Assembly: GCA_964017235.1 (NCBI GenBank)
Contig: OZ024938.1
Location: 9,167,454 to 9,231,453, forward strand
DNA length: 64,000 bases
DNA from: Sabellastarte sp. h YS-2021
Lineage: Eukaryota; Annelida; Polychaeta; Sabellida; Sabellidae
Direction of reading: 5' to 3'
The notes below the pieces were generated by a model. The model searched no databases, was not told the DNA's origin, and worked only from the letters and a program-made list of their open reading frames with translations. The translations under genes were made by a program, and so were the position numbers. Within the stretch, counting starts at the first letter, position 1; every line of letters starts with the position of its first letter. This document shows, in pieces, positions 9,487 through 64,000 of the stretch.

Positions 9487-9492
9487 TTTATT
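9487..9492 (-). promoter_or_regulatory. Possible AATAAA polyadenylation signal
   Basis: The minus strand reads AATAAA here, about 70 bases after the ligand stop codon. That would give a very short 3' UTR. In AT-rich DNA the hexamer is common, so this is only a candidate. Confidence 0.25.
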
Positions 9493-9561: not shown

Positions 9562-9702
9562 TCAGTTACCACCATCTAGACAAGCACATTCAGTTATCAA
9601 AAAGTCTTCAAAGATTGAGAGTTTGATATCTTGCTTTGCATCCAGGTGAATGACTTTTAGTGGCTTAAATTTCACAGGTCCACAGCACAGATGGTCTATG
9701 GG
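9562..9702 (-). CDS. Ligand exon 6 (last), C-terminal cystine knot
   Basis: The acceptor TTTTATGTTTTAG precedes 9702. There are 46 codons plus TGA (9564-9562), starting [20 protein letters not shown]. It supplies the Cys-Cys pair (the first of which usually makes the interchain disulphide), the beta-strand LKVIHLDA, and the final ECAC. The 31-residue spacing from the Cys-Cys pair to the C-x-C motif matches the family. The protein ends LDGGN after the last cysteine, whereas most ligands stop at or one residue beyond it. Phase 0 matches exon 5. Confidence 0.9.
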   Translation of the reverse strand, partial: PIDHLCCGPVKFKPLKVIHLDAKQDIKLSIFEDFLITECACLDGGN

Positions 9703-12700
9703 CTAAAACATAAAATGGACATGTATTTTTTCTTAGAATAGACAGTATGATTGTATGAAAATAACAGTAACTTATACAACAGCTTATACTAGATTCCCAT
9801 TGTTCTGAGATGTCTGAATGTCCTCAGTGGCCTAATAATCAGCAATTTTGGCTTCTAATCAAAGGCTGTCACCTCTGTGTTGGTTTAACACCCACGGGTG
9901 ACAATGCTGAGGGCCTATCAAAATATGACGTAAAACATTAACTTTAACTTTGTTTTGTAAGTTCTCATTTACCACCGTTTTGTTATTGATTGATGGATAT
10001 ATCATATTATATAAAAGTATATAAAGTATATTATGTCCAGCTCTAAAGCAGCACTCTCTATATTGCAGCATTTTAGGCTAGCTCTAGCAGAAGGCATTAC
10101 AACAAATAATAGAACAAGTATTAACATAATATGTTTCTAAATAAAGTTAAATGATATGATTTAATGTTAACAAACCAAATAAAATACAAAAATATACACT
10201 CTTTACTAAGTAAATATTAATGCTACAACACAAGTACATCTAAACACGACCAGTTTTTCATCACAGACTTCTTTTGTAGTGTAATTTCCAAATTTGTACT
10301 TGGATATCATAATTATAAAAGTCTCTGTGAAAGCATAGCCAGGCTTAACCAAATGTGCATATAACCTCTACAAAGTGGTTTACCTTGAATTTGCTTTTGT
10401 CGCTTTTTGCTAATCTTCTGAAGTATTTATTTTTGGGAAATCTGGTACAAGAGCCCTTGCATGTGACGTGTTTGAAGCCTTGGGGTTGGATGATCCAATC
10501 CTTCCAGCCGAGATCTGAAAATATAAAGAACGCAATAATTAAAAGAAAGAATAAGACAGATTGGCTGGGTTACTGTCATTCCCTCATAGTTCCATTTCAT
10601 CAACTAGTGTGCATTTACTATATTGTCCCCTAAAAGTGTCAAGTTACGGTTCCATATTTCCAACTTTGGCTCCGACCCTTGTCCACTAGGAAGTTAAAAA
10701 CCAAAAATTTGCAATAGTATATGTCAGAAAGGTAAAACAAGAAAGCCAAGAGAATATCCACCATGTTTGAAATTTTACATAAAATGTGTGGCTTTGCTCC
10801 CCAAATTCCAAAGCCGTCATCTTCATCCCAACTAGTCTTAATGGCAGTAAGTCAAAGCGTATAGGTCAGAGTACACTCCAGCCACATTCTATTGTCAATA
10901 TGTCAAATTGTATTGCTCATATGTCTAACTGTATTATAATTACAGTATAGGTCAGCTTCTTACTGACCAGACTTTGACAACAATGATAGAATCGAGTGGC
11001 TAAAAGCTTGCAATATTCCTTCTTAGATTTTTATTTAAAAATAATGGCCAATTTTAAGGTTTGAGCATCTTTCTGAAATATATTAATATATTGAAATATG
11101 CTCTCTGGCCTAATAATTTAGGAAATTCCTACATTGGTATAACAGATAGTAAAATAAAATCAATAGAAACTTTAACCAATCAAAATTACGGATGCAAAAA
11201 AGACCTCTTGATTGGTTATCATAAAACAGAGAACTGCACAGGCAACAAAAATGCATCTGCACATTTCCTGAGAGTCCATCATAGAGAAACTAATGTCCCC
11301 TGTTCCAATCTATGAATATAAACTTGAAAATAAAGTTCAAAACAAACAGAAGCAGTGAACATTGGGTGAAGCACTAATTATCTTTTTATAGTAGAAATAA
11401 ACTACTTTTGCTTGGACTTTATTGGCGAGTCAGTCACAAAAAATATCCTCTAAATAAAGGACTTAATTGGGCCTTCCGCCTTAGTCATTTATTTGAGTTT
11501 ATTTTTGTGATTGAATTGCCAGTAAAGTTTGCGCATGCGTGGTTTATTTCTACATTAGCTGGCTGCTTTCCAGCAAGCATCTATGATTCCACTTGTTAAT
11601 TTTTTGGTGGGGGGTCATTGGAATGTATTTACAAAATGTATGCCTTCTTGTACGTGATATTATTTCAACAACAACAAAAAACATCATTCTTGGAAACTGT
11701 AGTGTCTGTGGCGAGTTGTGTAACTAGGCATCCCTTCACTTTATACTCTTACTTGCATATATTTTCCATATTAATTGACACACTCGTGGGAATAATTTAT
11801 ATTGGTAAAAAATGTTGGTAAATCTGTGTAAAGGTCTGCTGTTCCAGCAATTGTTCACGACTGTTGACTGGAACCTTGGTATGAATGCTAGTAGCAATGA
11901 TATCTCATTTCTATTTCCTAACTCATTTATAATCTAGCTTATTTATAAATAAAGGTTTATATTGTTTTTATTTCTTGCAACAGGAACAAGAGATAAATGT
12001 GTTTTTTTTTACGAAAAGAAACAAATATTTACATATTTTCCCATACAACATTTTTTTGCCTCTGTGTATTTCCCAGTAGACTTTAATTGCCTTTAAAGTC
12101 CGCCATCAATGGATTATTATTGTAATAAATAGTGTTAAATATAAAAAAGAGTAGATATCCTTTTTCAGATACACAATTCGCCCTCTTAGAATGGTGTTCT
12201 CTAAAATGCATCACCCTCAAAGATGATCATATCACCACCGTGCAGGTCATATCACGAAGGGTAGTTTTGTAGGCAGAGGACCCCAGTACATACAGTTGGT
12301 CAAGGTTCTGGACGGTAAACTGTCGACCATCGGTAACGAAGTACCAATCTTCCACCATAAGGTCTGGGCCTTAAACTGCCGACCTCAGAGGTGGGAAGTG
12401 AATGTTTTACAGTGGACGGACGTTTCGGACATGGACATTTCGGTCTAGAACGTTCTGGCCTAGGATATTTTGGACAGGTCTTTTTTCGGGGAAGGACATT
12501 TCTGGACAGATTTTGTTGTGAAAAGTATTTTTTTTATGTTCTGGTTTTTATTTTCACAAACGAATGAATGGTAAAAACATTTGTTGTACACCCTTTTTAT
12601 CAACATTTATCACTACAGTAAACCGTTTATTGTATATCATTTTTGTCAACATTTATCACTTTAACTGAACATTTGTCACAACAGTATACTTTAACTGAAC

Positions 12701-15700
12701 AAATCCAGTCGATAGTATGACTGGTAAAAACACAAGACAAGATTCATGAACATTGAAACAAGTTCCATTTTAAATGTCTAGCTGGCCTCCTCTCAAATTG
12801 TGACTCACCCCCCCCCCCCCCCGAAGGAAATCTGCTATGGACTTGCAACCTGAAGATCTGTGCTGACAGAGATTGCACAATCTAGTTTGAGTTCTGTGTA
12901 GATTTCTTGGTCCCCTTCTATGTTTTCTATGTTTAAACAATTAACCACAAAATAGTTCCTATTTTACAAGAAGAGTCAGCTTCATGTAATTACCTCTGAG
13001 CAGTCCAATCCTGAGTAGGTATCAAAGGATACTGTCCCTTAACTTCATAACTTTTTTCACTAGAAATTTAAAAGTAATTCAATTACTGTGAAACTTTTGA
13101 TTATCACCTGAGTTCTGCTATCCTGAGTTGGTTTCAATATTCACATTCTTTAGCATGCACTGACAAAGAAGTTTAACAAATTTCATAACCAAAAAAAATT
13201 GTCCGATACGTCCACAATTGAAAAAAGGCCTGTCCGAGATGTCCTAGGCTGGAACATCCTAGGCCGAAATGTCCCAGTCTGAAACGTCCGTGTCCGAAAC
13301 GTCCTACATTCTTGTTTTAAAACTGTGCCACCATGGCCCCTCAAATCTGATCATAGAAAAGTGAGACAGAAATGGTGGATGTAGATTATTAGGGCAATGC
13401 ATCCAGTAGGCATTAATTAATTTCTTTATGTAAGTGCTCCTGCTCACACAGAACATTCCCTGTAATTTTCCCATATAACAGTAGATATTACATACATATT
13501 CTATCTAATTATATGCAAATACATTAAGTCACAGACAAAGGTTTCTAGGAGACTTACACCAACACCATCTCACTCTAGAGATCAACACTGTGTGATTAAT
13601 CAAACCACACAAGTCAGCCCCTTATTGGTTGAGTCAAATGTTACAGGACCAGCCTTCTAGTGAGCTCGAACCCGGAATTTCTTGCTCTAGAGACCCACAC
13701 TCTACCAGGTGAGCTGTAAGAGAAATCCCTACTGGCAAAGCCATTATGATGTATTTTTATCACTGTCTAGATACTGTCACAATAACATATTTATTAACGT
13801 GCATACATATAAATATACATTATACATGTATAACTATTATGACCTGTACGGGGGCAACAGTGGCAGTGGTAACACTCTCGCCTCCCACCTTTGAGATCAG
13901 GGTTCGGTTCCCGGCCCTGCCTCAAGTGGGAAAGCTGGTAGTTGCTTGCCGTTGGTCAGCAGTTTACAGTACAGAACCTTGACCAACTGTATGTACTGGT
14001 TTCCTCTGCCCTTTCAACAACCTGCCATGATATGACCTGTACAGTGTTGAAAGCAACGTAAAACCCCAAATAAATAAATGAATTATGACCTGTATTTGTC
14101 GGTTAATTTCCACCATCTATCACAGTTCCCATGAGAAATAACAATATTCCCACATTTGGATGTGTTTTCTGTTCATGAGATTGCATATTCTGACTAGAAA
14201 AGCACTCAGAATATAGACGTCCTCCAAGGGACAATATCTTTAACATGGCTATGAGTGTAATGATAAATAATCCTTTACAATTTCCCGGATCCAGACTGTA
14301 ATCTGGATCACTACCAAAATTTAATCCTCTGTTTCTTGTGTGGTATTTCCTTAAATTTCATGAAAATTGATCCACTACTGAGTAATTTTGCAAATAAACA
14401 AATGCCACCTACTGCATATGCCCTCTTGAAGTTAATTAATGATAATTGTGGCCCTTTCAATAGTGTTTATTTGTTTGTTCTTTTACGTCGCGTTCAACAG
14501 CCAGGGTCATATTGTGACGGGTAGTGTACAGGTGGAGGAAACCAGTGCATAATGCACTGTAAACCACCGGGCATCAGCAAGTAACTACCAACTTTCCAAA
14601 ATGAAGGACCCGGCCCGAGATTCAAACCGGCGGCCTCAGAGGTTGGAGGCGAGAACTCTAACCGCTACACCACCGACCCCCCCCCCTCCCCCCTCAATAA
14701 TGTTTAAGTAAAAATTAAACAGAAAATACTTTGGGTTGCCACTGGTGTGAGGCTGCATAGTGTTACTTGCTGGAATGCTGAGGAAACAGTTACCAAATTA
14801 CCAGATGGTTTACAAAACATCCCATTTCCCACAATTATGGGGAATTTTTGTAAATTTATTTGTTCCTTTTTTAATATAGTAACTGAATGAACAGCGCAAC
14901 CCTTAATGTATGGAATGGCATTTATTGATTTAAAAGATTTTTAAATATGTTACGTATATAACATACATAGTTTTTCATTTCAATATGTCAGTGACTTTTG
15001 TGGTATACCCCCACCGTCAAAAAAGGTCCGCATAAAACCATAACATTTTGAAAAATCAGGGGGAACCAAATATCTAAATCCTAGCTACTGCCCTGGGTCA
15101 TTCTCAGAATACAGAAAAAAAATGCTAAATTTTCAAAAATCCTATGTTAATTGTATGGTTATGGTTGACATTTTACTCCAAAAGTGTTGAGTGGATCTTC
15201 ATGGTTTTAATATGGTTAGACCCTGGCCAAAGAAATCAGTAATTATAGTTTGGGAAAGACCAGGGGCGGTATTCACTAACAAAGATTAAGATCAGATCAA
15301 GATCAGATCAAATTTGAGAAAAAAGTTTCAAGTGAGCCAGTGGATCAAATAGCTATTCACAAAGCAGGGATCACTTGAGCTGAAAAGATCAAATATTTGA
15401 TCTGTTTTTGTAATCATTACTACTCTCCCAATTTGTAGTTGCTTATTGTTTTAGGTTAAAATTCCTCTTAATCTATGAGCCTTCCATTATCTGAACAAAA
15501 ATCTCACTCCCAAGCTGTTCACATAATAGAGGTTCAAACTGTACTATACTGAAAGCATCACTGCTCACAAATTACTTTATCTCTTTAAACACTTTAGTGA
15601 TGTATTTAATCCATTGTTTTCAATAAATTATTTTATTACATTACAAAGTACATATTAAATTTCAGATTTACCCTTCAGAAGAAAAACAAAACAGTGCTAT

Positions 15701-18700
15701 AAATAACATTAAGCACTGAAATATTGTTTCCCAAATCTTGGGCAACATAATTTTTATACAGATACCCAGTGTAAAATATATCTATTGTTTTGACAAATGT
15801 TTTAGAGCCATGTGTCATTCTTTTCTGCACACAAAAATATTAGAAATATATCCATGCAGCTGTATTTTAGTGACATATAGTTTATTACTTTGCTGCATAT
15901 ATAAACATTAAGAAATATCCCCATTGTTTAAACAACTGTGTTTTAGAGCCACAATATTTTTGCCTGGCAAAATATCCACATTGTTTTGAAAACTATTGAA
16001 GAAACACATAATTTGCAAACCTTGACATGCTGTCCTCTATTGGGTTTATGATTAAAGAAATCTGATTGGTTATACCATGGAATGTAAAAATAAGTGGGCC
16101 TTTGGTTTGACCCTATATGTGCCAATATAACAAAATCAATACATGCAAATTGCACTGAGTAGGTGTGATCTGTAGCTGTGTCAAGCACAGTAAACATTTT
16201 TCTTTTTTTTAATTTGTGTCAGCAAAATGATGTGAACATTTTTAGAGCAGTTTGTTTTTCAGTAGTTTGTTTTTCTGAAATACATATGTTAGATTTATAT
16301 AAACAAAAGAAGTAATTCTAGTTGCAATATAATAGCCCACAAACATGGTAACCAAAAGAGGTAATATATTTGCACATTAGGATACATACAATTGTTTAAA
16401 TGTACCTGTATACATGTTTTCCATGTGTGTATATTTACAAACAATCTCACAAAATCATAGACTAAGCTGTTGACAAACTTAGGTTTAAGCTTGAGTTTAA
16501 GCATAAACTCAGAGGTTGATTTTTTTGTCTCACATGAGATTACTTTTGAAAATACAAACTTCAACATAATCTCATGTGTGCAGAAAAAACTGAGATTTAT
16601 GTGTTTGAATTTAAGTATGAGTTTAAGAATCTTTGTAAATCCGGGCAGTATCATTATTCATCTGCCAAAGTTTTATTTGTAGATCAATTTTTGGATTTGC
16701 TAAAAATTTATGGATATGTATATATTACAGTACCATCCAAAACCAGAGAAGTTATAATGAATAATATCTGGCCAGAGAGGGAACAAGTGATCATTGAACA
16801 ATGCACTGAAAATTCCAATGTTAGTCATGGAACCATTAGTTCCTCTGTCTCTGTAGTACCTGATTAAAAGATCCACCTTGATCAGAAAGTTAATCCAACA
16901 AAGTACATAGATCAAATTTAATCCAAAATTTGATCAGAAAATCAGATCAAATGTTTCGTGAATACCAATCATTGTTGATCCAAAAATCTGATCAAAAGTT
17001 GATCATTTTTGCTCAAATTTGATCTGATCTTTACTGATCCGTGTTCATGAATACCGCCCCAGGGGTGGTATTCACTAACATGGATTAGTAAAGATCAGAT
17101 CAAATTTGAACAAAAATGATCAATTTTTGATCAGATTTTTGGATCAGCTCAGATTGGCATTCATGAAACCTTTGATCTGATATTTTGATCAAATTTTGGA
17201 TTAACTATGACCTATGCTCTTTGATGGATTAACTTTTGGATCAAGACAGATCATAAATAACTGATAGAAGATTTATTTCTCAGGTAAACCATATAAAAAT
17301 GGATTGACACACTTTGACACATCTCTCAACACCACCTGGGATTTGAACACTCTCTCTAACTTTATTTCTTTATAGGAAGGATTGTTTAAAAATTAGAATC
17401 AAAGTTACGCCTATCTCTGGGGGAGATATGAAACTATTTCGTACAAAACTGAGTTTAATGAGCAACATTTCCTTTTGTAAATAGTTAAGGGGAACCTGTA
17501 AACAGCAATTTGCCTCAGAATATTTAAAAAAAATAATGGCACTTAGAAAATAAGCTATAATTAAATAATTAACAAAACACCATTTTTATGATGTGTGGGT
17601 GTATGTTTTCCAGTTTGGAGCAGTTTTGTATTAGTCACTTCACCCGAGAGAATGAATTCATATCCCTGACTTAAGGGTATGGGGGAAAGGGGGGAGAACC
17701 AAATTAAAGACAGTATAGCAATAAAAAGATACATTATAAAAGTTTCAAGCTCTAATTATGTATATAGAGGCTTTTAGTTTGTATTTTGTGTGGTTTGCCT
17801 TCAACTCAGGAAGCATAGGTGTACACTAAACCTTAATTTTGAAAAGGAATTTTTAACTGAGAGTTTATCCAGTAAGGCTTTCTTCAGGAGCAGTAAAATA
17901 AAGAAACTAGCCAACTGAGACTGTACAAGTCTCGCGTTCTAGCTGAGGTTTTCTCTTGAAGTTATCCTCCATTGTCTCAGCAAAGTTTTTTTCTCCCATT
18001 TTGATTAATCTTTCCTCATTGCAAAGAAAGAGATTGTTCCTGCCAATCAAAATCTAGAATAGTTTTCATATGACCTTGGTGACAAGTAAGAGAAAAAATA
18101 AGTCACCGTTCTAGATGGCTTATATCCAAGCCAGAATTTGAAGCCAAAAAAGTGCCAAAATTCTTGATACTAAATAAGTTGTACATGACAAATGACAAAG
18201 GAAAGTATGTATTCTCTAACTAAACTAAATATTAAGAAAAATACGTCACATGTTAATTCATCCATTGATTTGGAAATTCATAACATTTTTAAGTCGAATT
18301 TTACTTTCTTGATTCTTAATTGTTTGGATCGAAAATTTGGCAGACACCTTAATTTGGCATAGATATAAAAGAGACAATAAATTCAGAATCTAACCAATCA
18401 CAATAACTGAGACAAAATTACGCTATTGTAAGCTTTACATTAATTGACTGTGTGCCAATTACAGTAAGAAATCTCATTATCCCCCTTTAGCGTTTTGTTC
18501 GTTGGGTGTTTTTGGTAAATATTACTTTGGAGAAATCCAGGCTGGTTTACATAAAAAGGTGTAATTAACATTTAACATTTTTCAGCCGTGCCAAATTATT
18601 ACACTAAGCATTGGGCAGAATGCTCTACCTATGTTACTGATATATTTCTCAAACCATTTTTCAGCTGTGCCAAATTATTACACTAAGCTCTGAGCACTTT

Positions 18701-21700: not shown

Positions 21701-23163
21701 TAGATTTGGAGTAATCATAAATACAGATAGACTAAATAATGCACTCAAAACATGACTAGTAATAGTGGTAGTAGTAGCAGCACAGTAGCAGTAGAAGTAG
21801 CAGTAGTAGTAGTAGCAGCAGCAGTAGTAGTAGTAGTAGTAGCAGCAGCAGTAGTAGTAGTAGCAGCAGTAGTAGTAATAAAAGCAGCAGCAGAAGTAGT
21901 AGTAGCAGCAGTAGTAGTAGTAATAGAAGCAGTAGTAGTAGTAGAAGTAGTAGTAGAAGTAGTAGTAGTAGTAGTAGTAGCAGCAGCAGTAGTATTAATC
22001 TAATCTAATCTACTGCTTTGCAGGCGCAATATCTTCCCCACTAAGGGGAACTCAGTGCGCTAGTTAACAAAAATCATTTCTTATAAGGAGAGTCGAGGGG
22101 CGTTCAAGGTCAGTGTACCAGGTTTGTGGGTGAGACCGAGAGGGAAGGAGACTAAGTTGGGAAACTAGAGTTGAAAAGGTGGGTTTTGAGGTGTTTCCTG
22201 AAAGATGCGACAGAGGGACTGTTTCTTATTTGGAAGGGGAGAGAGTTCCAAAGAACTGGGGCATAGTGACTAAAAGAATTTGAGAAGTGTTTAATTGATT
22301 TATGAACTCTATGGTCAAAAGTGGGGGTATGAAGGAACTTGAGTTTAGGGGTACTTCGTCTAGTATTTCTAAAGGAAGTGTAGGGGTGGATTAGTTCTCT
22401 TAGGTAAACAGGCTGACCTTGGTTGAGGATTTTGTATGTAATGAGGCCTATTTTGAATTGTACCCTATACCTAACTGGAAGCCAATGGAGTTTTTTCAGT
22501 TGAGGGGTGATGTGAGAAAATTTTGAGGAACGGGTGACAACCCTGCAGAGTGAGTTTTAAACTAGTTGCAATCTTCTTAGTTCAAAGTCTGTGAGTGATA
22601 GAAACAGGGAATTGCAGTAGTCCAATCTGCTGCTGACCAAGGCATTGGCTAAAAGAACTGATGTTTTAAGGTCTAGAAGAGGGAGTATTCTGTAGAGGTC
22701 TCTTGCATGAGCTCTAGTGGACTTTATGACCTGTGACACATGGTCGGAGAAAGTGAAATTGGAGTCCAACACCACTCCGAGGTTCTTGACACTTTGTGCT
22801 GGTGAGACCTGATTACCAAGAATATTGATTGGAAAGTGAGGAAGGAGTTGTTTACGGTTGTTTTTCGAACCTTTCAAAATGAACTCGGTTTTATCAGGGT
22901 TGAGTTTTAATTTATTTGTAAACATAAAGTTTTGGATGTCGTTTAGGCAATTTTTTAGTTTTTGTACAGAGTGAGAAAAATTTGCTGGAGAGAGTAAAAT
23001 GTATAGCTGAGTGTCATCGGCGTAGAAATGGTAATTGATGCTACTGTGAGATTGAATGATGGAGCTGATTGGGTTGGTGTAAAGGGAGAAAAGAATTGGA
23101 CCAAGGACGGAGCCCTGGGGCACCCCATGCTGAAGGGCAACAGGATTTGAGAGTATTAGTAGT

Positions 23164-23195
<32 letters not shown>

Positions 23196-53100: not shown

Positions 53101-56100
53101 ATTTCATTCCGAATTTAAATCCTTTCTGGCAAACAATATTCAAATACTGGGTGGAATTTTGCAGAAACAATCATGCATACTCATTTGAAGATATTCTTCA
53201 GAGTAGCATTTGGTATAATAAAGAGATGGCAACAGAAAACCTATTTTATCCAACTTGGTATAAAAGAGGAATCCATATTGTAGGTGATTTGGTAGATGAA
53301 AACTACAAAATTTTAAGCTTTGAAAATTTAAAAGTTAAATACAATCTGAATGCAAATATTCTGAATTATTATACTATCAGGAGGTTACTGACAAAATTTA
53401 TACCTAAGGCAAACCAATCTGTATATTCAACAGTAAGAAGGCCCCACATACCCTTTCACATAAGTCCCTTGATTAATGCTGAAAGAGGCAACAAAGTTTT
53501 CTACAATATCTTGACAAGCCCTAGTCTTGACCAAATGAAGGACAAACATGAAGTCAAATGGTCTTTTGTTTTCAAATATAGATTGAGTGAGAACATTTGG
53601 AGAAACATATATAAATCCTGTTTTAAAGCAATTAGTGATAACTTTTTTATATGGTTCCAATATCGAACCATTTACAGAATTCTTGGAACAAATGGCTATT
53701 TAAAAAAACTAAATATAAAAAAATCATCTCTTTGTGGGATATGTACCGAGGAAACTGAAACTATTATCCATTTGTTTGTAACTTGTGGACAAGTTGATGA
53801 GCTATGGCAAAATATAATCATATGGATTGAGCAAAAGCTGAAGCTAAAAGTGAAGCTTGATGACGAATCAAAAATTCTGGGGTATTATGTAAAAGATCAG
53901 TTTTGGTGGCCAATGAACTTGATATTAATTGTTACAAGAGAATATATTTTTCAATGTTCAAAAAATAATCAAAAGCTTAACATATACTATCTTCAAACCA
54001 GAATAAAAGAAATATTCCTGGAACAGCAAAATCTATTTAGAGTGAGATCTTCTGAAAATGTTTTCCGTAAAAGATGGTGTGGATGGGAACAGCTATTTTA
54101 TGAAATATAATGAACCTGTAAAACTGTAATGTGAAACTTATTTACTCTGAACTGTAGTTTCGTTTTCTTTGTTTATCTCTTCATGTATATATGTTATCAA
54201 AAAATGCAAGACATTAAAAGTATTGTTATTTTTCTCTCCTGTATACTACCTTTGTTTTTTGTGTTTGTATATTGTGCAAATTAATGTAAGTGGAAAAATA
54301 AAAATAAATAAAAAAAAAAAAATTCCACATGCAAAATGCAATTCTGATTTCACAGCAGCATACTACCACAAAGAAAAGCCTCACCATTAATCTAGGTGTT
54401 GTAGTTTTATAGATGAAACTGATGCGGCAAAGGTTTAAGAATATATCTGCATTTTGCCAACATTCAAAGTCATAACTAAAAAGGTCTCATAGAGAGCAGA
54501 CTTCCACCGGGGTGTTTTCAGTATTTAAAACTTTTTGTATCTGGAATATGATCTGGATCTTTCATCTTTGATGATTATCAATTCATTACTTTTTGGTACA
54601 TTGTCAACCTAAAAGTCAAAGCCATTCAAAATAAATTGAAAAAATGGGACCTTTGATCTAAGGGGTTATTTGTTTTTGTATATCTACAGTATGTTCTTGC
54701 TATTTCCCGGAATTTAATCACTTCTTCCTTTGACCTTGCCCTAGCCACATAAAAAGGGTTCATGGAGATCCATTCATTACTTATGAAGAAAAGTCAATCA
54801 GAAACCCAAAGTAAATATAATAAACATTGTACATTTGAAAATACTGGATTTTTCATATCCAGAAAATGATCCAGATCTTACAAAAATTCAATGACTTTTT
54901 CCTTTGACCAGATCCTACTCACAGCAAAATTTCTAAAAGATCGGCCCATTACTTTTGGAATTATGGTCAATGCAAACAAACACGCGAACAAATGTAAATG
55001 AAACATAACCTCCTTAGAACTTGTTATTAAATATGAGCAGTTATTAATAGTACAAGGATATTTCCACCAACCATTTTCGTCAGAACAATTTGGAGTGACA
55101 AAGACATGTTCGGGCTTCAGAATTCTATCTTCACTGTCTTCCGTCACCACTAATATACCAAAGTTCTTCTTTGGCTTATCCAGCCAGCTTTCGACTGCAG
55201 ATTTCATGTCCAGCTTGATCCACCCTTCGTGATCTCGAGAAACCACATGTGAGGATACAAGTTCTTTCCTCTCTGTTAGAAATATAAAACCAGGGCCAGG
55301 ATTCATGAAAGGTCTTAAATCTTAGACAAAATTTTTAATAAGATCAATATTGAGTAACTTGAATAACTTAACTTGGGACCCTATAAAATGTAATAAGCAA
55401 AATCTTATGTAAGAACTTTGTCTAAGCTTTTTTTCATCACAAGTCATATAACCACATAAGCAAACTGCTGTGTCAGTGCATCTGATTGGCTGAAAAACAT
55501 GGCACAATTTCTTGTACAAGAGGACATTTTGACACATATTAAATGTCATTTTCAAGTTTGCAAAAACATTGAACGTAGATCCACATTGTTTCGCAACTGT
55601 ATAGAGTGATAATTTTTATATATACATATTGAAAGGCATATCCACATTATTTTCACAACTACGTTTAAAGATATCTATTATATGATATTTTGCAGAACCC
55701 ATAAACATGGTCTTGTGGTTAGCTAGTTTGGCATCTAATCATAGGCAGTCACCTCTGTGTGGGTTCAACTCCCACAATTGACAATGTTGAGGATCTGTCC
55801 AAATATGACCCTGGCTGCTGAATGGGACGTAAAACTCCAATTTTGACCTTTAAAAAAATCCATATTCTTGAACAACTCCTTCACAAACTCTTTAATATCT
55901 TCAGTATTTTTTGCAATTCACTTGCACCAGCTACTATAAAACCTTCAATTTTTAACTTTACATTTCTCTGCTGTTTCTGCATGGATTTCAATTCAACAAG
56001 AACAAGCAGAACACTATATAAAGGTACCATTTCAATGCCATATGAAACATATTTGCAGGTTACATAGTTACATTTTTAGAAAAACTTAGCACTTGAAATT

Positions 56101-57868
56101 GGCAAATCTGATGCAAAGTAAGGGTTGTTGAGGATAAAAAAAATATTGTCAGGTCTATGTGTACTGGGTGCATTTCCTGGAAAGGTCTCAGCCTTTATGG
56201 ATTTCACAAAAGATCTCACTCTCAGCTTTGGCTGAGCCACTGGCTAAAATGCTGAGACTGGTAGGTAGTGGGCTTAAGTTTTGTAACAAAAACTCAAATA
56301 TGGCTGCCATAATTCATTCTCCACTTCAAAATTTGAAATCGCTGAAAAAAGGTACAAATACGGTATATAAAGCAACTGCTTAAAGTAGTCATTGGGTGTT
56401 TCTACATGTTTACAAAGTTTCCCATTGCAAAATAGCCTTTGCCCAGAAATAATGTGTGTCAAACGAGGAACACATATATGTCATTAGTAGAATATTTTGA
56501 CTAAAAAAAGGGCCACAAGACACAGAAAACCACTATGGTTATTTGATAGGCTCAGTCTCAACTGACATCCCTTCTGTAAAAACCGTTTGAGACAAAGACT
56601 CAGCTGAGCCAAAAGGCTCAGATTTGGGTCAGCCTGAGACTGAGCTAAGGCTGAGACATTTCAAGAAATCCACCCCTGGTATTTAGGTCAAACACAATAC
56701 ATTGTATGTATGTATATAATAAGGCATGATACTAGCTGTACCTTTTTTATCCTTTCTGACAGGTCTGAGGTATCTGTAGATTGTCACTTTTAACTTATGT
56801 CCTTCTTCCTCCAATGAATGCTGGTGTTTCCTCTTCTTGTTCTGTGCCTTTGATCTTCTGTTCTTGGGCTGTGATTCAATTTGACAATTGCAGTCTGCTG
56901 AATAAAACAATACAATAACAACAATAATAATAATAGAAAAAAATATATATATGGTATAAAAAGGTCCCCTAATGCACACTGGAATCCAAAGCCATGGCAC
57001 TTAGAGCCCACCAGGCAGGCAGCCATGACTTTGTTGGTGGGTATACCAGTCTGAACAGCTATGCCCTCAGATGACTCCTGAAACTGGAATTGGTCTGTTG
57101 GGATCTGACAATAAGTGGAAGCCTGTTCCATTCAATTGGTGTGGCCATGGCAAAACCCTACCTGGCTGTCACCTTTTTGGGACTGATAAGGAAACTGATA
57201 ACCTACTTCAATGAGTGAGAGAAAAAAAGTAAAGATATTTCAGTTATTTTATGTGCCATCGGGCATAACCAATCAGAACCCACATCCAGGTAATGCTACA
57301 AATTTCACATATATATTTGTCAGGTATAATTTGGCCATGTTCGAATAATTTATTCTGACAATAAAGCTACGTTGTCTTCCTTTTTATATAAACCATAGCT
57401 TTGTATACTTTGGAGTTTGGACCATATATAACATTTTATTCCACTTTTCTGCCCTTTACTCAAATTTAGCTTCTTCAGTGTCAACATTTATCATGGTTGA
57501 TTGCAGTACGTGGCTTTTCAATAACCACAGATTTGCTGCTTCTCGTTCATATAACCACACAATATTTTATACGGCCACAGCTTTACTGATTTTCATTTAT
57601 ATGACCACAAATAGTTTATATAACTACATTTAAGTATCCATATTTATATCATCACAGATTGTAATACCTTCTTCTGTATAACCACACAGCTTGTTAAGTA
57701 ACCCCATTGCTTTATCATGCTCACCTTCCAGTGGTTTTTTATATAACCACAAAGATGATGTGGAGAACTGAACTCTGTCGTTATCTTCAACTTCTTTCTC
57801 TACATTAAAATACAACCGGAAGTGGTCTTTGGATCTCCATCCTTCATCTGATTTAGGAGGATTTTGGC
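9562..57868 (-). CDS. TGF-beta superfamily ligand precursor, six exons, 5' end not found
   Basis: This is a secreted growth-factor precursor. Dimers of the mature C-terminal domain of this family bind type I/II serine-threonine kinase receptors. Six minus-strand exons (57868-57725, 56897-56742, 55272-55072, 48691-48473, 10514-10384, 9702-9562) join in frame at phases 1,1,1,1,0 to give 329 residues. The propeptide occupies residues 1-214 and includes [15 protein letters not shown], a TGF-beta propeptide signature. The furin-type site RLKR is at 211-214, and the mature domain of 115 residues is 215-329. The seven knot cysteines are at 229, 258, 262, 289, 290, 322 and 324. GWKDWII (242-248) is the family Trp motif. 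Three N-glycosylation sequons lie in the propeptide (NCS, NRT, NST). The loop between Cys 262 and Cys-Cys 289 is short (26 residues), and five residues follow the last cysteine. Both are atypical, so I do not assign a BMP, activin or other subfamily. The start codon and signal peptide are missing from the recovered part. Confidence 0.92.
9703..10383 (-). other. Ligand intron 5
   Basis: 681 bp, GTAAAC donor and TTTTAG acceptor. It contains a SINE-B copy at 9826-9955. The rest is AT-rich with nothing else recognised. Confidence 0.8.
9826..9955 (+). mobile_element. SINE family B copy
   Basis: It reads cctcagtggcctaataatca, then ggctgtcacctctgtg, a diverged B box (ggtttaacaccc), gctgagggcctatcaaaata and tgacgtaaaac. 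It sits in intron 5 of the ligand gene in antisense orientation to it. Confidence 0.65.
10384..10514 (-). CDS. Ligand exon 5, mature-domain finger and Trp motif
   Basis: Acceptor TATATTTTCAG and donor AAG|GTAAAC. It has two bases plus 43 codons: after the split Asp it reads [20 protein letters not shown], then [18 protein letters not shown]. The GW-x-x-W motif, WII-x-P and C-x-G-x-C are hallmark features of TGF-beta ligands. The usual WIIAP alanine is Gln here. The helix region normally carrying an NATNHA-like motif is replaced by a short Lys/Arg-rich segment. Confidence 0.93.
10515..12231. other. Intronic stretch, nothing recognised
   Basis: AT-rich, no repeat family or coding block identified by eye. 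Short open frames on both strands have no family resemblance. Confidence 0.4.
12232..13345 (-). mobile_element. SINE family A copy split by foldback element FB2
   Basis: 12232-12411 matches the inverse of the SINE-A body (caggtcatatcacgaagggt ... gacctcagaggtggga). The tRNA-head end resumes at 13313-13345 (actgtgccaccatggcccct), which is where it should in the family. The intervening ~900 bp is the foldback element at 12412-13312. The 3' tail of the SINE (low-coordinate side) is missing. Confidence 0.75.
12412..13312. mobile_element. Foldback element FB2 with GGACATTTCGG subrepeat arms
   Basis: The left arm (12412-12520) and right arm (13200-13312) are inverse of each other. Both consist of diverged ~14-bp units such as ggacatttcggtctag and (inverse) ctaggccgaaatgtcc. 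The element is flanked by tgttttaca (12403-12411) and tgttttaaa (13313-13321), a 9-bp target duplication with one mismatch, inside a SINE-A copy. A 9-bp duplication suits MULE/foldback-type transposition. The interior includes a 15-base poly-C tract (12808-12822) and no protein domain. Confidence 0.8.
13355..13712. repeat. Dispersed repeat with tRNA-like end, second copy near 37285
   Basis: 13362-13440 (agaaatggtggatgtag, ggcaatgcatccag, attaattaattt) matches 37298-37360. Near 13645-13712 the minus strand reads AGCTCACCTGGTAGAG and later GGGTTCGAGCTC, a tRNA-like A/B box pair. A tRNA-derived SINE is likely, but its ends are not defined. Confidence 0.45.
13849..14081 (+). mobile_element. SINE family A, full length, with 13-bp target duplication
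   Basis: This is the best reference copy. The tRNA-like head has an A box (tggcagtggtaac, 13861-13873) and a B box (ggttcggttcc, 13901-13911). The body carries agctggtagttgcttgcc and agtttacagtacagaacctt. The 3' end is acgtaaaaccccaaataaat. It is flanked by perfect duplications attatgacctgta at 13836-13848 and 14082-14094. It should be transcribed by RNA polymerase III from the internal promoter, with LINE machinery presumed for insertion. Confidence 0.92.
14285..14400 (+). repeat. R1 repeat fragment (gatcc/TTTTGA-type)
   Basis: It reads ggatccagactgtaatctgg, atcactaccaaaatttaatc and aaatttcatgaaaattgatc, the same succession as units of the array at 39925-41665. A degraded single unit. Confidence 0.6.
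14470..14693 (-). mobile_element. SINE family A copy, variant subfamily
   Basis: The inverse orientation shows ttttacgtcgcgttcaacag at the 3' end and a B-box inverse (gattcaaaccgg) near 14620. The body has ccagggtcatattgtgacgg, shared with 28313-28472 and partly with SINE-B, so it is a distinct subfamily. Flanks tcaatagtgttta (14457-14469) and tcaataatgttta (14694-14706) form a 13-bp target duplication with one mismatch. A C-rich tract sits next to the head. Confidence 0.8.
14707..15259. other. Intronic stretch with possible old repeat
   Basis: 15030-15105 (aaccataacattttgaaaaa, ccaaatatctaaatcctagc) loosely resembles 23520-23600. Otherwise nothing recognised. Confidence 0.3.
15260..17062. 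mobile_element. 1.8-kb inverted-repeat element, family M2 (GGCGGTATTCAC ends)
   Basis: The left end is ccaggggcggtattcactaa followed by gatcagatcaaatttgag. The right end at 17062 is its inverse (gaataccgccccagg, preceded by ctcaaatttgatctgatc). Both terminal regions are rich in TTGATC/GATCAA motifs, so inverted similarity runs over about 100-150 bases. No transposase was recognised, so it is presumably non-autonomous. Related ends occur at 17059, 31617 and 46780. A hairpin-like nested repeat is at 16467-16655. Confidence 0.75.
16467..16655. repeat. Imperfect ~75-bp-arm palindrome nested in M2
   Basis: The left arm (16467-16545: gacaaacttaggtttaagct ... ctcacatgagattac) pairs with the right arm (16565-16655: aatctcatgtg ... 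gagtttaagaatctttgta). It could be a small foldback MITE inside the larger element. The open frames across it on both strands are by-products of the palindrome. Confidence 0.65.
17059..17250 (+). mobile_element. Second M2 end, abutting the first copy
   Basis: It starts ccaggggtggtattcactaa exactly where the previous M2 ends and runs through GATCAA-rich sequence to about 17250. The two termini share the ccagg bases. The matching right end of this copy was not found. Confidence 0.65.
17251..18579. other. Intronic stretch, nothing recognised
   Basis: AT-rich, no repeat or coding block identified. Confidence 0.35.
18580..18733 (+). repeat. Direct repeat, two ~77-bp units
   Basis: The tttttcagc(c/t)gtgccaaatt block followed by attacactaagc and ctatgt..gtgatata occurs at about 18580-18656 and again at 18657-18733, with about 85 percent identity by eye. 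Confidence 0.7.
19460..19970. mobile_element. MITE, family M3, 37-bp terminal inverted repeats
   Basis: The termini 19460-19496 and 19934-19970 are inverse repeats with three mismatches (ctgttccatttctgtgatgt ...). The interior is built from many diverged copies of an ATCNTAAACC motif (for example atcataaacc, attgtaaacc, atcttaaacc, atcgtaaacc), more than ten in about 400 bp. A second, more diverged member is at 28561-29146. No coding capacity. Confidence 0.85.
20400..20690 (-). mobile_element. 5S-rRNA-related SINE, copy 1
   Basis: Read on the minus strand, 20515-20463 gives GAAGTTAAGC, ATGGGC, then TTAGTACTGGGATGGGTGAC and CGCC. This matches the A-box, intermediate element and C-box order of 5S rRNA genes. 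Further 3' (lower coordinates) is a conserved family body ending near aaagggtttcaatctactag. This copy carries an extra duplication of the ctcactagagttcacgct end. 5S-derived promoters define SINE3-type elements. Other copies are at 51714-51945 and 59742-59968. Confidence 0.75.
20691..21751. other. Intronic stretch with one unresolved exon-like block
   Basis: Mostly AT-rich. On the minus strand 21578-21388 is an open, Cys-containing block between an acceptor-like attgtaatacag and a consensus GTAAGT donor. I do not recognise its translation, and it does not fit the ligand reading phase. No other repeat was recognised. Confidence 0.25.
21752..22002 (+). repeat. AGT/AGC trinucleotide array, left part
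   Basis: About 250 bp of mixed agt/agc/aga triplets. It continues after the LINE insertion at 23160-23222. The valine/alanine-rich open frame across it is an artefact of the triplets. Confidence 0.95.
22003..23153 (-). mobile_element. L2/CR1-like LINE, 5'-truncated, inserted in trinucleotide array
   Basis: About 1.15 kb, coding region followed by a ~150-bp 3' UTR and a TTAGA-repeat tail (inverse taatctaatctaatct at 21995-22010). The 5' end is cut just before the reverse transcriptase PQGSVLGP motif. Flanks agtatta on the left (about 21990) and right (23153-23160) may be a short target duplication. A second short 3'-end copy of this family is at 51460-51520. The element looks young, with one stop codon in the residual frame. 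Confidence 0.85.
22152..23150 (-). pseudogene. LINE ORF2 C-terminal half, reverse transcriptase palm onward
   Basis: The minus frame runs PQGSVLGP (motif before the catalytic block), then FYADDTQLY with the YADD active site, [18 protein letters not shown] and SRLDYCNSL. After a single TAA at 22558 it continues in the same frame through LKKLHWLPV and [10 protein letters not shown] to LWNSLPFQI and a TAG at 22154-22152. In related elements the stop position is a Gln-containing QLVQN, so one C-to-T change explains it. The apparent start at 23123 is a GTG inside the truncated domain, not a real start. Order and motifs are those of the L2/CR1 group. Confidence 0.88.
23160..23222 (+). repeat. AGT/AGC trinucleotide array, right part
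   Basis: Continuation of the array at 21752-22002, split by the LINE. Confidence 0.9.
23229..23316 (+). repeat. 28-29-bp minisatellite, three units
   Basis: Three consecutive units begin tattttgggatccaaaaa and end taaaatccta. They are almost identical and differ mainly in one A-run length. Confidence 0.95.
23340..24956. other. Intronic stretch, nothing recognised
   Basis: No gene or repeat family assigned. A possible old repeat shared with 15030-15105 lies near 23520-23600. Confidence 0.35.
24957..25066 (+). mobile_element. SINE family B, partial
   Basis: It retains gtctgactcccacaa (B-box region), gaggacctgtcccaatatga and ggtaaaaccccaacctttga. The 5' end is worn. Confidence 0.55.
25877..26084 (-). 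mobile_element. SINE family A with 16-bp perfect target duplication
   Basis: The inverse copy begins tttatttatttatttggggt, with ttttacgtcgctttcaacac and then tggcaagcaactaccagctt. Its head is slightly shortened around the B box (gggaatagaccccg). Flanking aaaagggcccggtatc occurs identically at 25861-25876 and 26085-26100, showing a recent insertion. Confidence 0.93.
26307..26870. mobile_element. MITE, family M1
   Basis: The left end is gggccagattttacaaaatg, tandemly doubled in a 24-bp repeat. The right end is the inverse (cttcgtgaaaccagccca). The interior shares cttaagttttgtaaacaaag and similar stretches with other M1 copies. Confidence 0.7.
26871..27807. other. Intronic stretch, nothing recognised
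   Basis: No repeat or exon identified. Confidence 0.35.
27808..27945 (+). mobile_element. SINE family A, head and partial body
   Basis: tRNA-like head with tggtgcaatgggtaac (A-box region) and gcggttcaaacctgcc (B box). Body gttgctgaccagcagtttac is followed by abrupt loss of the 3' half. Confidence 0.65.
28313..28472 (-). mobile_element. SINE family A variant, 5'-truncated, with target duplication
   Basis: It has only the 3' body (tgttttacgtcgcattcaac ... ctaccagctttccaaagtg). Flanks aaacctgtgatatga (28298-28312) and aaacctttgatatga (28473-28487) form a 15-bp duplication with one mismatch. The missing tRNA head was therefore lost at insertion, as with LINE-driven truncation. Confidence 0.8.
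28561..29146. mobile_element. MITE, family M3, diverged copy
   Basis: The ends are ctgttccaccttggcgaatg and the inverse (caccaaggtgaaacaa). The interior again contains gatcggtttacgatag, cagtttgtgataatttcaaa and similar TTTACGAT/ATCGTAAA-type motifs. Confidence 0.65.
29147..30279. other. Intronic stretch, few weak signals
   Basis: 29755-29825 resembles one arm of the palindromic repeat at 43215-43326 (gaagatggcaatatta, gcacaagtattat). 29375-29425 and 49225-49262 share a ctctgagtgctcttgt box. No gene seen. Confidence 0.35.
30280..30735 (+). mobile_element. L2-like LINE 3' end
   Basis: The decayed C-terminal coding end reads [19 protein letters not shown], then a short 3' UTR ending gggattaagtgctataaaag and a ttagattggatt tail. 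This is the characteristic end of the L2-type elements repeated across the window. The frame is broken after about 30540. Confidence 0.75.
31040..31240 (-). repeat. R1 repeat copy, inverse
   Basis: It contains tgtttgtaaaataacttgaa, agctatgaatggatgttatt and aaattttcaagtaattt, the inverse of the R1 unit end (TTTTTGAGTTATCTTG preceded by a CATCAAAATCC stretch). Confidence 0.55.
31617..31765 (+). mobile_element. M2 left end, partial
   Basis: It starts ggggtggtattcactgaca and continues with gatcagatcaagatcagatc and tgaaaagatcaaatatttga, close to 15265-15410. No right end nearby. Confidence 0.7.
31850..32070 (+). mobile_element. SINE family C, partial
   Basis: Shares gacattgataaatcgtcatc, gtcagtcactgtgggtta and agcagtttgagcccta with the copy at 2395-2715. 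The head is missing. Confidence 0.55.
32071..33489. other. Intronic stretch, nothing recognised
   Basis: No repeat family or exon identified by eye. Confidence 0.35.
33503..33656 (-). mobile_element. SINE family B with target duplication
   Basis: Inverse copy: aaagttggggctaagtcccg at the 3' end, B-box inverse gggaatagaaccca, head gctaacccactaggccactg. Flanks gtttatagattaa (33490-33502) and gtttacagattaa (33657-33669) give a 13-bp duplication with one mismatch. This is the clearest full SINE-B. Confidence 0.85.
33670..34754. other. Intronic stretch, nothing recognised
   Basis: No supported feature. Confidence 0.35.
34755..34860. repeat. Palindrome with ~45-bp arms
   Basis: agtgtccaatatttgaaagt ... 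ggactgttta on the left is mirrored by gaacagctcattattttcag, atattggacact on the right. A third partial gatattggacag motif is at 35090. Confidence 0.6.
35602..36004 (+). repeat. Degenerate ACTC/ATTC tetranucleotide tract
   Basis: About 400 bp of actcactcattcactc-like sequence with frequent substitutions and indels, an old expanded microsatellite. Confidence 0.9.
36005..38469. other. Intronic stretch, mostly unrecognised
   Basis: 37285-37370 is the second copy of the repeat seen at 13355-13440. A 125-codon minus-strand open frame (37417-37040) has no family resemblance. Confidence 0.35.
38470..39040 (+). mobile_element. L2/CR1-like LINE C-terminal remnant
   Basis: The broken + frame reads [31 protein letters not shown], then GFCNGFSH (frame change), WNRLPQSV-type residues and [10 protein letters not shown]-type residues, ending near a ccataaaaatgtttctgttc tail. 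A closely related fragment is on the minus strand at 56990-57175. Confidence 0.75.
39440..39905 (+). repeat. ~195-bp direct duplication around a LINE scrap
   Basis: 39452-39647 (aataagatagagcataaaag ... ctcccaaaaggtaat) is repeated at 39710-39903 with few differences. Between the copies (39652-39709) is a fragment matching 38610-38672 of the LINE (tatcttgtttaaatataatc). The organisation suggests segmental duplication or a target region duplicated with the scrap. Confidence 0.85.
39925..41665 (+). repeat. R1 satellite array, alternating ~146-bp units
   Basis: About 12 half-units, each built as ggatcca..gatcc, gtgatcc.gatcact, aatca, ttcctt, tttcctgaaaatttcatc, ccataactttttgag. Two types alternate. 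One starts after aattacatttcatgg and the other after acacatctggcagcctgg. The aattacatttcatgg landmark recurs at about 39931, 40222, 40495, 40788, 41215 and 41508, giving a ~290-bp dimer period with one extra half-unit between 40788 and 41215. The array ends in a CAAA-repeat (41648-41666). Open frames across it are artefacts. Confidence 0.9.
41674..42346 (+). repeat. 175-bp tandem repeat, four units
   Basis: Units start at about 41674, 41848, 42023 and 42198 with ccaaaaatgaccctcggtca. The last three contain tcaaggtcaaatttgtgcat and acatatatatgtattatata and are nearly identical. The first unit diverges after 60 bases. Confidence 0.95.
42347..42560 (+). repeat. Dispersed repeat following the 175-bp array
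   Basis: It contains gaccttgagattgaaggtca, aggtcacaaa, then accaaatttcaaagttctaa and ttatcgcgtccaaacgga. By recollection this resembles repeats common in molluscan and other marine invertebrate genomes. No second copy seen here. Confidence 0.4.
42800..43330 (+). mobile_element. Repeat element ending in a near-perfect palindrome
   Basis: 42890-43060 (tactatggataatgagtgtg, aatatatcattagaaaggtg) recurs diverged at 46245-46365 and inverse at about 52240-52335. The terminal palindrome 43215-43326 has ~55-bp arms (gacatatgcagaaaaaatat against its inverse) around ctcgtgctacgcactcg. The palindrome recurs at 51955-52055. Confidence 0.7.
43331..44550. other. Intronic stretch with short subrepeats
   Basis: 43385-43465 has four diverged ~19-bp units of the kind ttttgcaggagacatttt, similar in style to the arms of the foldback elements, but no inverse arm was found. 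The rest is unrecognised. Confidence 0.45.
44551..44785 (-). mobile_element. SINE family A copy
   Basis: Inverse copy from tttatttatttatttgggtt through tacgtcgctttcaacactgt to the head (ctcagaggtgggaggtgaga). It has an internal duplication of atatcacgacc/atatcacgg. Confidence 0.85.
44786..46240. other. Intronic stretch, nothing recognised
   Basis: AT-rich, no supported feature. Confidence 0.35.
46376..46780 (-). mobile_element. M2-related element
   Basis: The right end is atgttagtgaataacacccc, inverse of the M2 terminus. Inward it has ctcgaatttgatctactc and gaatagccgtttgatcca, and the left side has aatcaacttttcgatcagct. Internally deleted relative to 15260-17062. Confidence 0.6.
46985..47285 (+). 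mobile_element. SINE family C copy
   Basis: ttggtttgatcctaggtatc (B-box region), gatacatagtggctcagatg, cccagtggcaggctaataac and ggtaaaagagtgttaag match 2395-2715. Confidence 0.65.
47400..47650 (+). repeat. R1-related repeat copy
   Basis: It has aagaagatccagatccttct, ttcttcctttggccaggtcc and tctgttcattacttctagaa, then CAAA-type tail sequence. Same subtype as 54850-55020. Confidence 0.6.
47985..48235 (+). repeat. 48-bp direct repeat and GACA microsatellite
   Basis: actcctgactttaattttca ... caccaaatttgaaa occurs twice in succession (47997-48040, 48045-48088). It is followed by gttatagtttttgagttata and a gacagacagaca run (48163-48190). Probably an R1-like element end. Confidence 0.7.
48473..48691 (-). 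CDS. Ligand exon 4, propeptide end, cleavage site, first knot Cys
   Basis: Acceptor TTTTTACTTACAG and donor AAAG|GTAGGA. 72 full codons plus split codons, phase 1 on both sides. It has sequons NRT and NST, then SKNARLKR with the RLKR cleavage site, and a basic mature start [13 protein letters not shown]. The first mature cysteine follows in [12 protein letters not shown], aligned with the LYVDF-type strand of other ligands. The hydrophobic sequence that would precede it on an unspliced reading is intron. Confidence 0.92.
49580..49850 (+). mobile_element. L2-like LINE 3' end
   Basis: Coding scrap [17 protein letters not shown]-like, then the 3' end aatggagattaagtaccata, aaagtcatattagaattaga. 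Matches the terminal signature at 59233 and 63620 (inverse) and 30690. Confidence 0.6.
50800..50990 (-). mobile_element. SINE family A, worn copy
   Basis: gtagttggaagggcatagat, aaccagtacatacatctggt and caatggcaagcaactaccca are clear SINE-A body. Both ends are eroded. Confidence 0.7.
51460..51520 (-). mobile_element. 3' scrap of the 22003-23153 LINE family
   Basis: gactgctttgcaggcacaat and aatggggaactaagtgg match 22010-22060 (actgctttgcaggcgcaat, aaggggaactcagtg). Confidence 0.65.
51714..51945 (-). mobile_element. 5S-rRNA-related SINE, copy 2
   Basis: Inverse 5S-like block gcggtcacccgtcccagtac, taacatagcccat, cttaacttcagtg at 51778-51829. Flanking family body ggtctactagcacaagtccc and end gtgagccttgctagagttca. 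Confidence 0.75.
51955..52390 (-). mobile_element. Inverse copy of the 42800-43330 element
   Basis: Palindrome aagataacaatattatacga, gtgcatagcac, gtattatattgttaattttc at 51955-52055, then ttttacttttattatctacc. Further in, ccgaaagttatttacactaa and ttatccatagta (inverse of 42905-42945). Confidence 0.65.
52391..52859. other. Intronic stretch, nothing recognised
   Basis: AT-rich sequence upstream of the L1-like LINE. It may include a decayed 5' part but shows no motif. Confidence 0.3.
52860..54325 (+). mobile_element. L1/Tx1-like LINE, 5'-truncated
   Basis: It carries an open frame for the C-terminal part of ORF2, a ~190-bp 3' UTR and an A-rich tail (aaaaataaaaataaataaaa at 54295-54322). No endonuclease or reverse transcriptase motifs remain upstream. 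It lies in ligand intron 3, opposite to the gene. Confidence 0.8.
52887..54110 (+). CDS. LINE ORF2 C-terminal region with zf-RVT-type motif
   Basis: A 407-codon open frame without any stop. It begins with a region like [20 protein letters not shown], the segment just after the reverse transcriptase in L1/Tx1-group proteins. Near residues 282-302 it has [18 protein letters not shown], a Cys-x2-Cys-x8-His-x4-Cys pattern (zf-RVT). The methionine used as start is internal to the ancestral protein, and the frame extends slightly upstream (CCNFQEK). It was probably not translated by itself. An uninterrupted frame of this length implies a fairly recent insertion. Confidence 0.8.
   Translation: MLGQIPNSKRVCQDYLHGGMRMVDIFNFEKSLKLSWLKQLNIDNKKPWLLLLQESIHSFQKLYTLGPEWSLNFIPNLNPFWQTIFKYWVEFCRNNHAYSFEDILQSSIWYNKEMATENLFYPTWYKRGIHIVGDLVDENYKILSFENLKVKYNLNANILNYYTIRRLLTKFIPKANQSVYSTVRRPHIPFHISPLINAERGNKVFYNILTSPSLDQMKDKHEVKWSFVFKYRLSENIWRNIYKSCFKAISDNFFIWFQYRTIYRILGTNGYLKKLNIKKSSLCGICTEETETIIHLFVTCGQVDELWQNIIIWIEQKLKLKVKLDDESKILGYYVKDQFWWPMNLILIVTREYIFQCSKNNQKLNIYYLQTRIKEIFLEQQNLFRVRSSENVFRKRWCGWEQLFYEI
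54500..54800 (+). repeat. R1-related repeat copy
   Basis: It contains cttgctatttcccggaattt, aatcacttcttcctttgacc and ttcatggagatccattcatt, followed by acttatgaagaaaagtcaat. Confidence 0.55.
54850..55020 (+). repeat. R1-related repeat adjoining ligand exon 3
   Basis: It has ccagaaaatgatccagatct, tttcctttgaccagatccta and cattacttttggaattatgg, then caaacaaacacgcgaacaaa and aaacataacctccttag. It ends ~50 bp from the donor side of exon 3. Confidence 0.7.
55072..55272 (-). CDS. Ligand exon 3, TGF-beta propeptide core
   Basis: Acceptor TATTTCTAACAG; 66 full codons plus split codons. [20 protein letters not shown], then [26 protein letters not shown] and [12 protein letters not shown]. The W-I-x-L-D-x-x-x-A-V-x-x-W-L pattern followed by N-x-G-I is the TGF-beta propeptide signature. 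The donor that keeps frame is AATG|GTTGGT, a weak site. The sequon NCS is near the end. Confidence 0.9.
55705..55857 (+). mobile_element. SINE family B, near full length
   Basis: A-box region ttgtggttagctagtttggc, B box gtgggttcaactccca, body gaggatctgtccaaatatga, 3' end gggacgtaaaactccaattt and an A-rich tail. Confidence 0.85.
56191..56679. mobile_element. MITE, family M1
   Basis: Left end gcctttatggatttcacaaa then agatctcactctcagctttg. Right end aggctgagacatttcaagaa then atccacccctgg. Interior ggtaggtagtgggcttaagt shared with 211-669 (inverse). Lies in ligand intron 2. Confidence 0.75.
56742..56897 (-). CDS. Ligand exon 2, propeptide
   Basis: Acceptor TTTTATTCAG with a tandem NAG (TTCAGCAG), donor AAAG|GTACAG. 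51 full codons plus split codons. It encodes DCNCQIESQ, a Lys/Arg/Gln-rich linker ([17 protein letters not shown]), then [15 protein letters not shown], a beta-strand typical of TGF-beta propeptides. The CxC in the propeptide could be involved in prodomain disulphides. Phases 1 and 1. Confidence 0.87.
56898..57724 (-). other. Ligand intron 1 (of the recovered part)
   Basis: 827 bp, donor GTGAGC. Contains an L2-like fragment (56990-57175) and a cluster of ATAACCACA motifs (57522-57686). Confidence 0.85.
56990..57175 (-). mobile_element. L2-like LINE C-terminal fragment
   Basis: The minus frame gives [17 protein letters not shown] and SSFRSHLRA then a stop and LFRLVYPP. This is the conserved LINE end WNxLP...F+xxLK...LF, and is very similar to the fragment at 38760-38900. 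Confidence 0.7.
57725..57868 (-). CDS. Ligand exon 1 of the recovered part, propeptide
   Basis: Acceptor TATTTTTTTCAG, donor GAAG|GTGAGC, 47 full codons plus split bases. [20 protein letters not shown] then [20 protein letters not shown] and LYKKPLE. The pattern of an amphipathic strand followed by LWLYKK matches the arm region of TGF-beta propeptides. As it begins with a splice acceptor in phase 1, at least one upstream coding exon with the signal peptide must exist. Confidence 0.87.
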
Positions 57869-60300: not shown

Positions 60301-60509
60301 TAGAGGTACTGGTACATTAGAGTAAGAGTTTGTAATGAAAACTGTTTTGAATTCATGATCGGAATGCAGACGACTTTACTGTCAACATACAATCAGGAAA
60401 TTTGAAATAGCACCTCAAGTTTTTAGCCGGCATTTGTTATTCTATACAAACCCGCTGATTGTATGTGCATAGAAGCGTTTTCATTTACTGATCACCCCCG
60501 GTCTTTATA

Positions 60510-60742
60510 ATTATTTATTTCTTTTGGTTTAACCTAGCTTTCAACACTGTACAGGTCATATCACAGCGGGTAGTTTTGTGGGCAGAGGAAACCAGTATTT
60601 ACATTTGGTCAAGGTTCTGTACTGTAAACTGCTGACCATGGGTAAGCTACTAACAATTTTCCCACATAAAGTCCAGGGTTTGAACCACAGACCTCAGAGG
60701 TGGCTGGCGAGTATGTCACCACTGCTCCACCCTGGCCCCTGA
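60510..60742 (-). mobile_element. SINE family A copy
   Basis: ttatttcttttggtttaacc at the 3' end, cactgtacaggtcatatcac, gttctgtactgtaaactgct, B-box inverse gggtttgaaccac, head ccactgctccaccctggccc. Confidence 0.85.
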
Positions 60743-63867: not shown

Positions 63868-64000
63868 TAATTCTAACTGGACTTTTATAGTTCATATCCC
63901 CCTTTGCTAAAGTGACACTTAGGCCCAGCAACACCATCACTTTTTTCTTGGTAACCCCCAAGAAAGATTTTAACTGTTCAAAATTTCTGCTGATCCTAGA
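63868..64000 (-). mobile_element. Second L2-like 3' end, runs off window
   Basis: The minus strand ends ggggatatgaactataaaag then tccagttagaattagaatt (63905-63867), the same terminus type. The coding part would lie beyond 64000. Confidence 0.5.

Follow-up and report, generated by a model that had tools for sequence, protein, structure and literature searches.

A 64,000-nucleotide stretch of contig OZ024938.1 from Sabellastarte sp. h YS-2021 (hereafter the window) very probably contains the 3' part of an apparently intact, divergent animal TGF-beta superfamily ligand gene, encoding the propeptide from about its middle onwards and the whole mature domain. The gene comprises six exons on the minus strand, running from 57868 to 9562 over about 48 kb. 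When joined, exons A to F give 992 bp and an open frame of 329 residues that ends at a TGA codon, without an internal stop or frameshift, with intron phases of 1,1,1,1,0 and AG/GT borders. The joined protein carries the motifs GWIKLDM, GWKDWII, CKGSC, Cys-Cys and CAC, as well as RLKR. The outer coordinates, splice dinucleotides, phases, stop at 9562 and motifs named in the original prediction were all found in the sequence. That prediction gave the outer ends only, and the inner exon borders are our reconstruction from phases and splice sites. The features are as follows.

57725..57868, minus strand: exon A, propeptide; phase-1 acceptor and donor AAG|GTGAGC; lies within the TGFb_propeptide match of the joined protein, no Pfam match alone.
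56742..56897, minus strand: exon B, propeptide; phase 1 to 1; lies within the joined TGFb_propeptide match, no Pfam match alone.
55072..55272, minus strand: exon C, propeptide with GWIKLDM; donor ATG|GTTGGT; matches TGFb_propeptide alone (6.5e-9).
48473..48691, minus strand: exon D, end of the propeptide, RLKR, first knot cysteine and EEMYIKF; phase-1 donor AAG|GTAGGA; matches neither TGF-beta model alone.
10384..10514, minus strand: exon E, shortened middle segment; donor AAG|GTAAAC, phase 0; matches TGF_beta alone (5.3e-7).
9562..9702, minus strand: exon F, Cys-Cys to CAC, tail LDGGN and stop TGA; matches TGF_beta alone (1.4e-6).
9487..9492, minus strand: AATAAA, a possible poly(A) signal about 70 nt past the stop, read by eye.

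The family assignment of the joined protein rests on several searches. Both Pfam models against which the original prediction proposed to run the joined exons, naming the lack of a hit as a refutation, match strongly: PF00019 TGF_beta with an E value of 1.1e-20 (74.7 bits, cut-off 27; residues 228-324) and PF00688 TGFb_propeptide with 3.4e-14 (53.5 bits, cut-off 25.8; residues 13-156, model positions 107-224 of 242). The complete mature domain with a seven-cysteine knot that had been proposed is borne out, as the TGF_beta match covers positions 1-104 of 104 and seven cysteines follow RLKR. The accompanying claim of a propeptide with an RLKR site holds in part: the furin-type site is present at 48549-48560 on the minus strand, between the propeptide and the mature domain, whereas the propeptide match is partial, beginning at model position 107 of 242. 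The description of the exons as not obvious on their own fails for three of the six, namely C, E and F, each of which exceeds the Pfam cut-offs singly. A search of the PDB returned 61 distinct sequences at E <= 0.001, led by BMP-7 (4e-15), and the best 60 of these 61 are without exception ligands of the TGF-beta superfamily, natural or engineered. The 2959 stop-to-stop frames of at least 15 aa on both strands were also scored with a mature-domain HMM derived from 15 human sequences. Two frames fell below an E value of 0.01: exon E (1.2e-9), followed in the expected order on one strand by exon F (6.8e-7). The third-ranking frame reached 0.27, and the matches of exons E and F are far beyond chance. 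In a second test, a home-made prodomain HMM found exon C weakly (0.0038) and gave exon A an E value of 8.7, exon B being absent from its matches. Of the features that mark the superfamily, the joined protein shows the TGF_beta cystine knot (six cysteines, with the dimer cysteine as a seventh), an upstream propeptide and an RxxR site.

The original prediction joined the exons into one transcript across a 38 kb intron, which contains part of a retroelement.

10515..48472, minus strand: putative D-E intron of 37,958 bp, placed by the phase and model continuity of exons D and E.
22560-23375, minus strand: reverse transcriptase fragment within the D-E intron (PF00078 RVT_1, 1.9e-16).

The gap of 37,958 bp with its retroelement sequence would also fit two genes or remnants, with A to D part of a ligand gene that has its mature exons at another site, and E and F part of another gene or remnant. 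We consider this very improbable, because exon D ends and exon E starts at adjacent TGF_beta model positions and in the same phase, and because the TGF_beta score rises on joining, from 30.8 bits for exon E, its split first codon omitted, to 46.0 bits for D plus E. Apart from exons E and F, none of the 2959 frames in the window fell below an E value of 0.01 with the mature-domain HMM. Both strands were scanned for a first-cysteine motif with a phase-1 GT after it, which yielded 20 candidates (8 minus, 12 plus); among these, exon D alone has R-x-[KR]-R within 40 residues upstream and is one of two with a good donor. On the strength of phase, model continuity and score gain, we infer a single gene over the 38 kb intron, a D-E join across 37,958 bp that is well supported at the level of sequence.

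The finer borders are less firmly placed, with uncertainty over the donor sites of exons C and E. Exon C ends at a weak donor, ATG|GTTGGT, and seven further phase-1 GTs occur in the same open frame; for exon B, two acceptors 3 nt apart are possible (CAGCAG). Exon E could instead end at one of two donors that lie 12 and 18 nt downstream of the one used, which would lengthen the protein by 4 or 6 residues. Among 12 open joins around D, E and F, the exon E donor in use ranks third by HMM score, with 74.6 bits against 77.7 and 77.6 bits. The two higher-scoring donors (77.6 and 77.7 bits) are poorer donor sequences, and the phase-0 donor was retained because its sequence best fits the donor consensus.

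A search upstream of exon A for the 5' end of the gene turned up neither a start codon nor a signal-peptide exon within the 64-kb window. Seven short Met-initiated hydrophobic frames occur there, two of which have a phase-1 donor of the type searched for, both poor, and none of the 17 upstream minus-strand frames of at least 50 aa gave a propeptide match. The first exon or exons may lie beyond position 64000.

Repeats and mobile elements are spread through the window. Within the D-E intron, the frame adjoining the reverse transcriptase fragment (22155-22556) has no Pfam match, and a microsatellite of (TAG)n type is found close by, at 21757-21994. The same intron holds two tandem arrays, one at 40384-41656 with a period of about 148 bp (70% matches), which by self-comparison reaches to about 39917, and one at 41821-42345 with three copies of a 175 bp period (97% matches). 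In the C-D intron, a 441-aa open frame on the plus strand at 52785-54110 represents the end of a LINE-type retroelement, with a zf-RVT domain (PF13966, 6.5e-9). A GIY-YIG domain fragment (PF01541, 1.1e-5) at 730-969 on the minus strand may derive from a Penelope-like element, and a long imperfect palindrome at 16877-17245, 87% alike to its own reverse complement over 369 bp, is possibly a MITE. A SINE-like dispersed repeat family with the motif TTTTACGTCGCTTTCAACA is also present, its matched copies being about 70-91% alike.

13863-14086, 25877-26058, 44549-44775, 60507-60725, 12232-12410, 28323-28466 and 50834-50984: copies of the SINE-like repeat.

Matches to NCBIfam DNRLRE (23 bits, below the cut-off of 34) and to DUF1685 (under its cut-offs) were rejected, and an Rfam scan at the gathering threshold and a tRNA scan gave no matches.

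The cysteines of the mature domain, seven after RLKR, follow a BMP/Nodal/Vg1-type pattern. According to published work, nine cysteines occur in TGF-beta, the inhibins, myostatin, GDF15 and the Maverick/Panda group, and the Lefty/GDF3/GDF9 group is without the dimer cysteine (PMC4564238). The seven cysteines do not fit the nine-cysteine group (TGF-beta/activin/GDF15/Maverick), and the Cys-Cys pair does not fit the Lefty/GDF3/GDF9 group. Since it fits neither, the protein is filed as a TGF-beta superfamily ligand with a BMP/Nodal-like cysteine pattern and without a subfamily. A maximum-likelihood tree of 23 rows, in which the bootstrap had not settled, gives the ligand a terminal branch with a length of 3.76 changes per column. 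A branch without support (52/78) divides the tree in two, and the ligand falls on the larger side, that of BMP and Nodal, together with GDF15, AMH, GDF9 and LEFTY1; no supported set in this tree includes it.

The searches for relatives likewise point to divergence. Single-sequence searches of a collection of 5.8 billion proteins, animal proteins included, drew 305 candidates with the whole protein as query and 8 with residues 225-328, and none of them passed. Such searches depend on shared 5-residue words, and they came back empty because the mature domain shares almost no 5-mers with the family members compared: 134 of 135 comparison sequences have none in common with it, and TGFB1 has two. 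This comparison set combines 15 human domains with 120 listed of the 1192 proteins matched by an alignment query, which was made up of the joined protein and six human domains; Nodal and inhibin beta A dominate these 120. PF00019 is present in each of the 120 listed matches, most of which go by the names Nodal, inhibin beta A or BMP10. Elsewhere in the family, shared 5-mers number 13 for BMP2 and the unnamed record P0003, 16 for GDF2 and the likewise unnamed P0078, 6 for the paralogues BMP7 and BMP2, 20 for human NODAL and a Polypterus nodal-related protein, and 57 for INHBA and a protein from Amia. The empty searches therefore speak against the presence, in that collection, of a near relative 181-575 aa long, and leave room for distant kin or proteins of other lengths. 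A literature search, made without the species name, tied no paper to the ligand, to which we attach small weight. The divergence and the absence of near relatives could reflect a lineage-specific ligand or a poorly sampled group.

The pattern of conserved and changed positions bears on whether this divergence is that of a working gene. Against the 135 sequences, and in BMP-2 numbering, the seven cysteines, Gly27, Trp28, Trp31, Pro35 and Gly45 are kept. Ser88, which we take to be part of the type II surface, is replaced by Lys (Ser in 129/135), Tyr91 by His (Tyr in 127/135) and His60 by Tyr (His in 131/135). Five residues (LDGGN) lie beyond the last CxC, where all 120 listed of the 1192 matches have exactly one. 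Human LEFTY1 also has residues beyond its last CxC, so that such a tail is not unique in the superfamily. The equivalent of the BMP-2 wrist leucine 51 is Lys in one alignment and Pro in another, Leu in neither, at a position that is itself variable in the comparison set (Leu in 34/135, Val in 54). This leucine is described as critical for the binding of BMPs to the type I receptor (PMC4564238). As judged from the alignments, these differences suggest altered receptor use. The divergence would also be accounted for by a pseudogene in decay that has so far kept an open frame, and the very long unplaced branch, the change of several usually constant positions and the weak donor of exon C are in favour of this. 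We hold this to be very improbable, as six exons join without a stop or frameshift and the seven cysteines and structural Gly, Trp and Pro residues are kept while other positions have changed, which is a pattern of constraint.

An apparently intact ligand gene is thus the preferred reading, and by analogy with the family a mode of action can be proposed. The precursor would enter the secretory pathway via a signal peptide encoded further 5', dimerise by way of the additional cysteine in Cys-Cys and be cut after RLKR by a furin-like protease. The mature 115-residue cystine-knot dimer would then bind, or compete for, type I and type II serine/threonine kinase receptors. More tentatively, and with considerable doubt on our part, the protein might be a lineage-specific, fast-evolving ligand outside the named subfamilies, which keeps the cystine-knot scaffold and the dimer cysteine while its type I (wrist) and type II (knuckle) surfaces have been remodelled, and which could serve as an antagonist that blocks receptors, or work through a non-standard receptor pair. 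Should the divergence prove real and shared across the lineage, the gene adds a ligand that word-based searches miss, with changes at likely receptor contacts; should it prove orthologous to a known BMP or Nodal, the result is ordinary gene annotation. In either case, the locus is a clean case of a complete signalling-ligand domain recognised in raw sequence over a 38 kb intron.

The gene type itself is well known, as multi-exon TGF-beta ligands have already been described, and this copy is an additional member of the family. With BMP ligands (BMP5-8 and BMP2/4-type) it shares the seven-cysteine knot, the LGWxDWII core, the RxKR site and the propeptide domain. BMP-7 and BMP-6 are its leading PDB matches, and among the 120 listed of 1192 proteins the propeptide is matched best by P0003, which we read as Dpp-like. 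Unlike BMP ligands, it has Lys at Ser88, His at Tyr91 and five residues instead of one after CxC. The spacing between the third and fourth cysteines is 26 residues, compared with 30 in BMP-2, and identity to six human domains is 28-31%. The stretch CC-x-PVK-x-KPL ... ECxCL resembles human NODAL, with which the ligand also shares the number of seven cysteines, whereas in the tree it stands outside the supported pair of two Nodal rows. A tail past the last CxC is also present in human LEFTY1. The Lefty proteins differ in being without the dimer cysteine (PMC4564238), whereas the window ligand has Cys-Cys. Maverick, Panda and GDF15 are without the BMP wrist leucine (position 51 of BMP-2), as the window ligand also seems to be, and differ from it in having nine cysteines rather than seven (PMC4564238). 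For scallops, a published account gives 6 exons for a BMP5-8-like ligand gene, 5 for an ADMP-like gene and 2 or 3 for others (PMC10763453), so that a multi-exon ligand is not unusual. The window gene, likened to this set by exon number, differs from what the account describes in having at least six exons plus an unseen 5' part (PMC10763453).
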